DNA of 64,000 nucleotides, from assembly GCF_019665785.1 (NCBI RefSeq), contig NZ_CP081149.1, positions 2,418,001-2,482,000 of the forward strand, read 5' to 3'. The stretch comes from Deefgea piscis. Its GTDB lineage: Bacteria > Pseudomonadota > Gammaproteobacteria > Burkholderiales > Chitinibacteraceae. Position 1 is the stretch's first letter; each line of letters opens with the position of its first letter. The position numbers and the translations under genes are program-made. The notes under the pieces were generated by a model that saw only the letters and a program-made list of their open reading frames with translations, was not told where the DNA came from and made no database searches. Of this stretch, positions 52,182-57,602 are shown in pieces.

Positions 52182-52739
52182 AGCGCCTCCTTGCCTAAAC
52201 GTAATGTGCCACCGAAGGGACTGGATGTCGAAGAAGTACAATGGATTACATTGTACGCTGACCATAGAAAAATTGAACGACAACTGCGTGTAATTATTCA
52301 TGCCGAATCTGACTCAAGTTTTCCAAACAAACTCATCGAACGTCGATACTCGGCTTGCTAATTTAGTGTCAAAATCAGGTATCCGCTCATCATCACACAG
52401 CTCGTACCCCAATTTACAGACCTCGCACAATGTGGAACCTATATGCAAAAAAATATTTCATTTGATACACGCGATGAGTACCAGCGCCGTCCAATCGCAG
52501 AAAAGATAATTCAACTACTTGCTTCTGATATCGTAGTTTCACCAATGATCATTGATGGCAGTTGGGGTACAGGGAAAACTGAGTTCTGCCAAAAGTTAAT
52601 CACATTGGTCGAAAGTAATAATGAAATAGCACCGTTTCTACCTGTCTATATTGATGCATTTCGGTAAGGGCTTAGCCGTTCCACCTCAATTATCGTTTTA
52701 ATTCAGGCATGCTGCGCTTTTGATTTTTTGGAGCGCAGC

Positions 52740-53072
52740 ATGGGACGGTGGATTGATGCTTTGCAATGGGTTCAACGTTGGCAGACTAGTGGTTTAACTC
52801 AAGCCGAGTTTGTCCGAGTGCACCAGCTTAAACGCACTACTTTTTCCAGTTGGCTGCGCCGTAGCCGCCTCGAATCTGCCGACGCATCTTCAGCTGCAAT
52901 CACCGAACCGCAGATCGCTCCGAAACCATCGGCTTCAAGCATCGTGCCCGCACAATGGCCCGCACCCGTTGCGGCGCAGTTGCAGTTGAATTTCCCCTCC
53001 GGCGTGACCCTGACTTTGCCTGCGGCGACCGATCCGGCTTGGGTCGCGGCGTTATTGCGCGGTTTGGCATGA
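52740..53072 (+). CDS. tnpA: IS66 TnpA-like protein
   Basis: The 110-residue protein has a short HTH (TQAEFVRVHQLKRTTFSSWL) as in IS66 OrfA. It overlaps tnpB by four bases (ATGA). Confidence 0.8.
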   Translation: MGRWIDALQWVQRWQTSGLTQAEFVRVHQLKRTTFSSWLRRSRLESADASSAAITEPQIAPKPSASSIVPAQWPAPVAAQLQLNFPSGVTLTLPAATDPAWVAALLRGLA

Positions 53073-53410
53073 TGCCGCCATTCACTTCGCTGCAATTGGT
53101 CGTCGAACCGGTCGATATGCGCCTTGGCATCGAGGGTTTGTCGGCCAAGATTCACGCCTGTTTGCAGCGTTCACCCGTCGAAGGTGCAGCGTATGCGTTT
53201 CGCAATCAGCGCAGCAATCGCCTCAAAGTGTTGCTGTGGGATCGCTCTGGCGTCTGGTTGGCGCAACGGCGTTTGCATCACGGTCGATTTATTTGGCCAC
53301 AATCGGGCGATGCTGTGTTTACGCTGGATGCGGCGCAGTGGCAATGGTTGGTGAGCGGTGTCGACTGGCAGCGATTAGCGCCGCCACCGCTGCCAGAATA
53401 TGTCTACTAA
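53069..53410 (+). CDS. tnpB: IS66 TnpB-like protein (Orf2)
   Basis: The 113-residue product has the IS66 Orf2 pattern: VVEPVDMRLGIEGLSA, NRLKVLLWDRSGVWL, FIWPQS, and ends near VDWQRL. Start ATG overlaps the tnpA stop. Confidence 0.88.
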   Translation: MMPPFTSLQLVVEPVDMRLGIEGLSAKIHACLQRSPVEGAAYAFRNQRSNRLKVLLWDRSGVWLAQRRLHHGRFIWPQSGDAVFTLDAAQWQWLVSGVDWQRLAPPPLPEYVY

Positions 53411-53504
53411 TTCACGCTGCGGATGGATAAAATAGTTGTCGCAGTATTACCCTATAAATCATGAAGGATATGATTTGTATGGCAATACCCAGTAAAATCA
53501 AAGC

Positions 53505-55683: not shown

Positions 55684-56004
55684 ATGAAAAAATCTACCCC
55701 ATTTTCCCCTGAAGTCCGCGAGCGGGCCGTTCGCATGGTCATTGAGCACCTTGCCGAATATCCATCTGAATGGGCAACCCTCGTTTCCATCGCCAGCAAA
55801 ATAGGCTGCACACCCGAAACGCTGCGCACCTGGTGTCGTCGACAAGGTGGCGATAGCGTTCAAGCCAACAAAAACTCCGCAGAGAGCGAACGCATCAAAG
55901 CCTTAGAGCGCGAAGTGCGCGAGCTTAAAAAGGCCAATGAAATTCTGCGCCTGGCCAGCGCGTATTTCGCACAGGCGGAGCTCGACCGCCGCTTGAAATC
56001 GTAA
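55684..56004 (+). CDS. IS3-type OrfA in the KAP insertion
   Basis: The 106-residue HTH protein (FSPEVRERAVRMVIEH, TPETLRTWCRRQGG) has a C-terminal zipper region (LEREVRELKKANEILRLAS). An AAAAAG word near 55928 and the overlapping frame beyond suggest the usual frameshift into OrfB. Confidence 0.9.
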   Translation: MKKSTPFSPEVRERAVRMVIEHLAEYPSEWATLVSIASKIGCTPETLRTWCRRQGGDSVQANKNSAESERIKALEREVRELKKANEILRLASAYFAQAELDRRLKS

Positions 56005-56102
56005 GAGGATTCATCGATACCCACCGTGAGCAGCACGGGGTCGAGCCGATCTGCAAGCTATTACAGGTCGCTCCGTCTGCTTATCGACGGTATGCCGCTC
56101 GG

Positions 56103-56903
56103 TTGCGTAATCCCGCATTGCGTTGCCAGCGCGCCATTCGTGACGAGCAACTGAGCGGTGAAGTTACGCGCGTCTGGCAAGAGAATCACCAGGTGTATGG
56201 TGCCGTCAAAGCCTGGCGGCAACTCAAGCGCGATGGGCATCTTGTCGCGCGGTGTACCGTTGAGCGTTTGATGCGCAGCCTCGGTTTGCGCGGCATATCG
56301 CGTGGTAAAACGGTGCGCACCACACGTCCAGACCCTGCTGTTGCGTGCCCGCTTGACCATGTAAACCGACAATTCGTGGCTGAACGACCAAACCAGCTCT
56401 GGGTGTCGGATTTTACCTATGTGTCGACTTGGCAGGGCTTTGTGTATGTGGCGTTTGTGATTGATGTCTTCGCTCGTTATATCGTGGGCTGGCGAGTTAG
56501 TCGCAACATGCAAACCGAGTTTGTGCTGGATGCATTGGAGCAAGCCCTTTGGGCGCGCCAGCCAGAGCGCGAAGCATTGATTCATCACAGCGACCGTGGC
56601 TCGCAATACGTTTCGATTCGCTATACCGAGCGATTAACCGAAGCGGGTATCGAGCCATCAGTGGGCACGACTGGTGATAGCTACGACAATGCGCTGGCCG
56701 AGACGATTAACGGACTCTACAAAACTGAAGTGATTCATCGTTTGGGTCCTTGGAAAAGTTTAGAATCTGTGGAGATAGCGACATTAGAATGGGTTTCGTG
56801 GTTCAATCAGCATCGTTTGCTTGGGTCGATTGGCCACATTCCACCTGCGGAAGCAGAAGCAAATTATTATCGTAATCAAAGCGAGCAGGCCATGTTGGTC
56901 TGA
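56103..56903 (+). CDS. IS3-type OrfB (DDE transposase) in the KAP insertion
   Basis: The frame is open from before 56006; the listed start is the first TTG/ATG-type codon. DDE residues are in WVSDFTYVST, IHHSDRGSQY and NALAETINGLYKTEV. The protein is probably made as OrfAB by frameshifting. The element's orientation is the same as that of the KAP gene. Confidence 0.9.
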   Translation: MRNPALRCQRAIRDEQLSGEVTRVWQENHQVYGAVKAWRQLKRDGHLVARCTVERLMRSLGLRGISRGKTVRTTRPDPAVACPLDHVNRQFVAERPNQLWVSDFTYVSTWQGFVYVAFVIDVFARYIVGWRVSRNMQTEFVLDALEQALWARQPEREALIHHSDRGSQYVSIRYTERLTEAGIEPSVGTTGDSYDNALAETINGLYKTEVIHRLGPWKSLESVEIATLEWVSWFNQHRLLGSIGHIPPAEAEANYYRNQSEQAMLV

Positions 56904-57602
56904 CTCAAACCAAACAGCCTCCGCGAAACCCGGTGCGATTCACAGCGCTACCTCGACAAATTTATCGCTTTCAGCTTCAGGCTACCAGCTGAACATAAAG
57001 ACCCATATCGAGTTGATAAAGGTTTGGCTGCGCAAACCCATTTTGTAAACTTGGTACTAGGCAGTAAATTGCTGCAGGACAGCGGGATAGCTGAAGATGG
57101 CGTCCTGAATGTAGTTAAAAGTCTCATTACGGCTCGTGAACAGTCACTTCGCGAAGTAGAAACGTTTGTCAAATATTTAGAAATATATCAGGTACTCACC
57201 AATAACAGGGGGTTAGGCAACAAGGATAGCAAAATTATTTTCGGTTACCTATTGCTATATGTTTACGCGATTTATTGTGCTTGCTTCCTTCTTGCGCTAG
57301 CCCAGAGTTTTCTAAAGGGGTCATATTCACCAGAGGCTGTTGCTCAATCGTTAGGTCATTTTAATTTTGAAGATTTTGCAAGCGACTTGCCGTTTGGATC
57401 TCAGGCTCTATTAGCCATGTTAGTGATCGATGCGCCTAATACCCCTAATGCGTTCCGCAGTATGGATGACAAAATCAAAAAAAGGTGGGGCGAAATAACT
57501 ACAGGGGCATTTGAGAGCGGTTTTTATCGGTTGAGTGATAATTATAGGGTTGATGTTATTAACAATACTCTTCGCACCTTATCAATGGGAAGTTCCAAAT
57601 AA

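Follow-up and report, generated by a model that had tools for sequence, protein, structure and literature searches.

In the genome of Deefgea piscis, a gene for a KAP-family NTPase of 457 codons is broken into three pieces by two insertion sequence (IS) elements. The gene occupies positions 52443-57602 of the stretch analysed here (64,000 nucleotides; contig NZ_CP081149.1, positions 2,418,001 to 2,482,000 of the forward strand), which we call the window. It is highly probable (roughly 0.85) that this is a recently inactivated KAP ATPase of the candidate defence family PDC-S20, located in a mobile island beside a type I restriction-modification (RM) operon and interrupted by two independent IS insertions, most likely under relaxed selection and by chance. 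An original prediction made from the sequence alone had described the split, and its coordinates, target duplications and frame phase were all reproduced (Table 1).

The lengths of the three pieces sum to 1374 nt, which corresponds to 458 codons with the stop codon. The pieces were kept separate, and the continuity of the frame was judged by phase arithmetic together with piecewise translation and alignment. No internal stop was found in any of them, so none interrupts the frame that they would form, and both Walker motifs, GSWGTGKT (A) and FIDELDRC (B), are present in the translations. The prediction also held that the gene is exactly restorable by removal of the two elements. Each piece was aligned separately by blastp with 125 homologues (120 listed of the 2339 found with an intact relative as the query, plus L004-L008), and 124 of them aligned to all three pieces; the exception was L008, which lacked piece 3. 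In each of the 124, which are kin of one another and therefore not 124 independent tests, the spacing was exactly one residue at junction 1, where a codon is split, and zero at junction 2, so the homologues are contiguous across both junctions. The relative from Andreprevotia sp. IGB-42 (460 residues) is matched at residues 1-73, 75-239 and 240-454, with 78% identity in piece 2 and 47% in piece 3, and the ranges of the PDC-S20 profile matched by the pieces are likewise consecutive. Exact restorability is therefore supported by three lines of evidence. The pieces retain all 16 invariant and all 37 near-invariant positions of the family alignment A2, indicating that the gene was probably intact up to the insertions, and since they carry no other visible damage, its death was probably recent. 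The open frame today covers 74 codons and ends at a stop just within the IS66 element, in place of the uninterrupted frame by which a functional gene was judged. The three pieces are unable to make the protein any longer.

Both IS elements look recently active and occur in multiple near-identical copies, most of which are flanked by target duplications. The IS66 element has eight full copies in the genome, this one included, which are 96-100% identical, and an 8-bp duplication was found at seven of them. The 1309-bp IS3 element has five full copies, all 100% identical, with a 3-bp duplication at four. A copy of the latter element at L097 lacks a matching target duplication and is a possible recombination product.

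The assignment to the KAP family was borne out by matches to KAP_NTPase (PF07693) of 34.9 bits in piece 1 and 102.8 bits in piece 2 (cut-off 20); piece 3 gave no Pfam match. The PADLOC model PDLC04956 of PDC-S20, a candidate single-gene phage defence, is matched over its full length by the consecutive ranges of the three pieces, membership being judged by profile coverage and E-value and not by PADLOC's own cut-offs. All 64 members of alignment A2, which contains three short open reading frames (ORFs; from L040, L056 and L059), match S20 models at E <= 1e-10, and the family length is about 460 residues. As judged by these profile matches, the broken gene is a dead member of the known candidate family PDC-S20. 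The proposal that it represents an undescribed defence component is thus not tenable; its link to defence is supported. PifA and QatA are defence KAP proteins that share the KAP P-loop domain with pieces 1 and 2, and their matches in the relatives were weaker than those of S20. For QatA, piece 2 scored 29.6 bits and two intact relatives 52 and 33.9 bits, far from the equivalog cut-off of 600 bits (NCBIfam). Tmn, a further KAP family NTPase, is described as a defence system and has two transmembrane domains (PMC11846954). PDC systems in general are described as candidates derived from guilt-by-embedding, mostly without experimental validation (PMC10855318, PMC12988326). Embedding in another defence system is the discovery route of these candidates and not part of the PDC-S20 model, and bears on context only; the window copy differs from it in being adjacent to and divergent from the type I RM operon, not within it, as well as in being broken by two ISs. 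Literature searches returned no experimental report on PDC-S20, and the titles and abstracts listed held nothing relevant on KAP with hsd.

A structure model was made of an intact relative. Its closest fold match, a tentative one, is RdrA of RADAR, at 14% identity and with 456 versus about 835 residues, and the matches barely cover residues beyond 360. ORC/Cdc6 and RFC ATPases are also among the fold matches, and the model has a helical insert at about residues 98-181. The literature search returned no paper that joins RdrA with KAP and RADAR.

The genomic context of the relatives was examined in one scan of genome contigs, from which the best 80 of 554 confirmed loci were taken, the 52 closest being L009-L060 and the other 28 more distant. 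Clustering of the neighbouring ORFs placed HsdM or HsdR in 22 of the 52 close loci and neither in the other 30; contig ends shorten some of these loci. In 17 of the 52, the KAP gene lies inside a type I RM operon, with hsd genes on both sides and on the same strand, sometimes with other ORFs between (L010, L013, L015-L020, L023, L026, L029, L030, L033, L034, L048, L050 and L051). This count is a hand reading of the clustering table, and an automatic rule (hsd within two ORFs on each side) gave eight embedded loci. Three further loci have hsd on one side only: L040 and L052, which lie at contig edges, and L059, which is partial. In two loci from Vibrio (L022 and L058), the KAP gene points away from hsdM and hsdS, the arrangement also seen in the window. 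Intact relatives beside or inside type I RM operons therefore do exist. The original prediction had regarded the orientation of the gene, away from the RM operon, as frequent among KAP NTPases of the defence type; the divergent arrangement is real here, but among the relatives it is the rarer one (2/52 versus 17/52 embedded). Most often the order is hsdM-hsdS-KAP-hsdR, with the gene for a YgjP-like metallopeptidase next. The KAP gene lies at a median distance of 6 bp from hsdS (n = 22 loci) and of 379 bp from hsdR (n = 20 loci).

When Hsd similarity was counted by tblastn, 23 of the 52 close loci were positive (adding L055, with HsdM and HsdR), versus 11 of the 28 distant ones (Fisher p 0.81). 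The distant KAP loci, intended as a negative control, thus failed as such, perhaps since they belong to PDC-S20 if that family is taken broadly. As a rough background, 61 whole genomes, other than those of the loci, contain 84 HsdM_N matches (about 1.4 per genome), and a 20-kb stretch is estimated to contain one in about 1% of cases or fewer. For the 30 loci without clustered HsdM or HsdR and the two divergent ones, two ORFs on each side were considered, excluding ORFs shorter than 75 aa. This gave 119 neighbours; 114 remained after five were dropped, namely three at contig starts in L041, L053 and L057, the hsdM of L022 and a short ORF of L024. Among the 25 of 126 Pfam families shown, none was found in more than four of the 114: pyridine nucleotide-disulphide oxidoreductase and methyltransferase reached four each, RhuM and phage integrase three. 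No RdrB-like family was among these 25 either, and no search aimed at RdrB was made. The Andreprevotia copy (L028:9989-11371) adjoins genes for TnsA, TnsB-like, TnsC-like, TnsD and TniQ proteins, and the Salmonella copy belongs to an island that also carries integrase and primase genes. ORFs that cluster with the TnsC-like and TnsD-like proteins of L028 were seen near the KAP gene in L020, L023 and L026 as well as in L028, and these islands may be Tn7-like cargo. One other ORF cluster occurs near the KAP gene in five of the 52 loci (L017, L020, L024, L029 and L050), its L017 member being Abi_2 (PF07751), and 14 of the 52 share a conserved ORF some 200 aa long, often just upstream of hsdM; its L030 member (L030:6589-7194) has no Pfam match.

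The KAP gene is distributed patchily. At E <= 0.001, the genome has no PF07693 match besides those of this gene, piece 3 had no relative at E <= 0.001 in six other genomes of the genus, and it was matched in three of 300 genomes of the order, the window's own included. Such a pattern fits horizontal spread. In a tree based on piece 2 alone, the window gene groups with Andreprevotia (100/99). One scan of viral contigs with piece 3 yielded 16 pattern-matched stretches and no confirmed relative, the plasmid search with piece 3 gave one record (Enterobacter, 32%), and the search of a phage collection with piece 2 gave five, the best of which (51%) is a Salmonella genome contig within that collection.

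The island that holds the broken gene seems to start at the 3' end of the tmRNA gene. Similarity to the tmRNA stretch ends at query positions 496-503 in five of six other genomes of the genus (the tmRNA end being at 498) and at 527 in the sixth; no repeat of the tmRNA end of at least 16 nt was among the 13 families listed in the flank repeat search. The island contains a truncated integrase gene, IS21-type and IS3-type copies, the type I RM operon, the broken KAP gene, and the AlpA and YagK/YfjJ genes; the names IS21-type and IS3-type are here a reading of domains and ORFs. It is framed by inverted copies at 40583-44113 and 58943-60763, which comprise an IS3-type element (about 1197 bp, 99.9%) and part of an IS21-type element (623 bp, 99.7%). 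In one congener (G002), about 0.82 Mb of a single contig separates the tmRNA flank from the right flank, the genes of which we read as LysR and SDR; this distance points to a rearrangement. Within the RM operon, 51917-50136 and, in another frame, 50124-49306 align with an HsdM homologue that a Shewanella plasmid encodes in a single frame (874 residues), so hsdM is split by a frameshift or a sequencing error. Elsewhere in the window, the 1197-bp IS3-type element occurs a third time, at 19427-20623, where it is identical to the copy at 42916-44112, and direct repeats at 27688-28330, offset by about 170 bp, are 92-97% identical.

Table 1. Features of the island and of the interrupted KAP gene (positions in the window).
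Feature	Position	Strand	Evidence and remarks
tmRNA gene, island left edge	39434-39797	+	ARAGORN
Truncated phage-type integrase	39971-40510	+	Arm-DNA-bind_3 and Phage_int_M; no catalytic domain matched
hsdR	44442-47633	-	TIGR00348
hsdS	48054-49298	-	PADLOC Specificity_I
hsdM C-terminal remainder, other frame	49300-50061	-	253 aa; aligns to 625-873 of the 874-aa homologue
hsdM N-terminal ORF	50052-51917	-	621 aa; TIGR00497; residues 1-594 align to 1-604 of the 874-aa homologue
Small HTH_17 protein, upstream of hsdM, divergent from KAP gene	51972-52301	-	PF12728
KAP piece 1	52443-52663	+	221 nt, 73 codons and 2 nt of split codon; Walker A; PF07693 E 1.3e-8; PDC-S20 profile 1-72/450
IS66 target duplication, left	52656-52663	.	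8 bp, GCATTTCG
IS66-family element	52664-55129	+	2466 bp, inverted ends; TnpB_IS66 and DDE_Tnp_IS66 (Pfam)
IS66 target duplication, right	55130-55137	.	8 bp, GCATTTCG
KAP piece 2	55138-55633	+	496 nt, 1 nt of split codon and 165 codons; Walker B DELDRC; PF07693 E 2.6e-29; PDC-S20 profile 74-239/450
IS3 target duplication	left 55631-55633, right 56943-56945	.	3 bp, CAG
IS3-family element	55634-56942	+	1309 bp, inverted ends, two transposase ORFs; HTH_Tnp_1 and rve domains (Pfam)
KAP piece 3	56946-57602	+	657 nt, C-terminal part and stop codon; PDC-S20 profile 240-448/450, E 3e-32
AlpA-type regulator	57890-58165	-	PF05930
YagK/YfjJ-type protein	58272-58901	-	PF11726

The original prediction had raised selection against the activity of the KAP gene, next to chance decay, as the reason for two insertions in one gene. 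Their probability was calculated with a uniform-insertion model over the 11.9 kb of non-IS DNA of 39798-60860 and four to six insertions, the insertion number being a reading of the elements and the test post hoc. At least two insertions in the KAP gene have a probability of 0.07-0.15, even before the post-hoc choice of the gene is counted, and therefore do not require selection. No insertion in the hsd genes (about 7.5 kb) has a probability of 0.003-0.02 under the same model, which hints that these genes were spared. If KAP activity had become costly, through auto-immunity or through toxicity after the loss of a partner or of the neighbouring RM system, the insertions would have been positively selected, and two independent hits in a 1374-nt gene versus none in the hsd genes would be accounted for. 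Nucleotide-binding defence switches are often abortive, so that a cost is plausible. However, a second insertion into an already dead gene would be neutral, intact copies persist in many bacteria, and the ISs are multi-copy and look recently active. The neighbouring hsdM is frameshifted too, suggesting that the island is decaying as a whole. We therefore regard selection against the gene as unlikely.

The function of the intact protein can also be read in other ways. Its tight placement in the operons, a few base pairs from hsdS, would suit an accessory subunit of the type I RM enzyme, for example one controlling HsdR, instead of a separate defence gene. This is improbable, since 30 of the 52 close loci are without clustered HsdM or HsdR (L055 of these being positive by tblastn, and contig ends cutting some), and the RM system of the window is of another lineage, its HsdM being mostly 35-37% identical to that of the embedded class. 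Moreover, DarTG2 lies between hsdS and hsdR in an E. coli island (PMC12255303). PDC-S20 takes up this same position in the commonest class, as would be expected if the slot held exchangeable cargo. Slightly less probable again is a housekeeping ATPase of a mobile element, serving replication or maintenance of a satellite or island and not defence, although the window gene stands beside AlpA and YagK/YfjJ genes, the Salmonella and Andreprevotia copies have the mobile-element neighbours described above, and ORC/Cdc6 and RFC are among the fold matches. The carriers are unlike one another, with no family shared by more than four of the 114 neighbours outside RM operons, as expected of cargo, and 17 of the 52 close loci lie within RM operons. 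A bolder proposal, which we would count as a long shot, sees in the PDC-S20 proteins RdrA-like ring ATPases that act on their own. They would fill an exchangeable cargo slot of type I RM operons, held elsewhere by DarTG2, and would also move by themselves on satellites and Tn7-like elements, and the copy in the window would have been purged as harmful after the hsdM frameshift.

In the reading that we favour, inactivation under relaxed selection, a PDC-S20 gene encoding a KAP P-loop ATPase is carried in a mobile island, adjoining a type I RM operon, and two multi-copy, recently active transposable elements have inserted into it independently and left three pieces and no protein. The most likely cause is relaxed selection and chance in a decaying, IS-rich island with a frameshifted hsdM. 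The candidate in the window is neither new nor functional. As a by-product, the search for its kin provided intact relatives, among them the closest that was found, from Andreprevotia, and the class located between hsdS and hsdR, and the match to RdrA is a fold lead for a candidate family on which the literature searches returned no experimental report. By analogy with RdrA as the nearest solved fold, intact PDC-S20 may work as an ATP-driven, AAA+-like oligomeric switch that would act in parallel to type I restriction. Such a switch would probably add a second layer of protection, sensing infection and stopping the growth of the phage.
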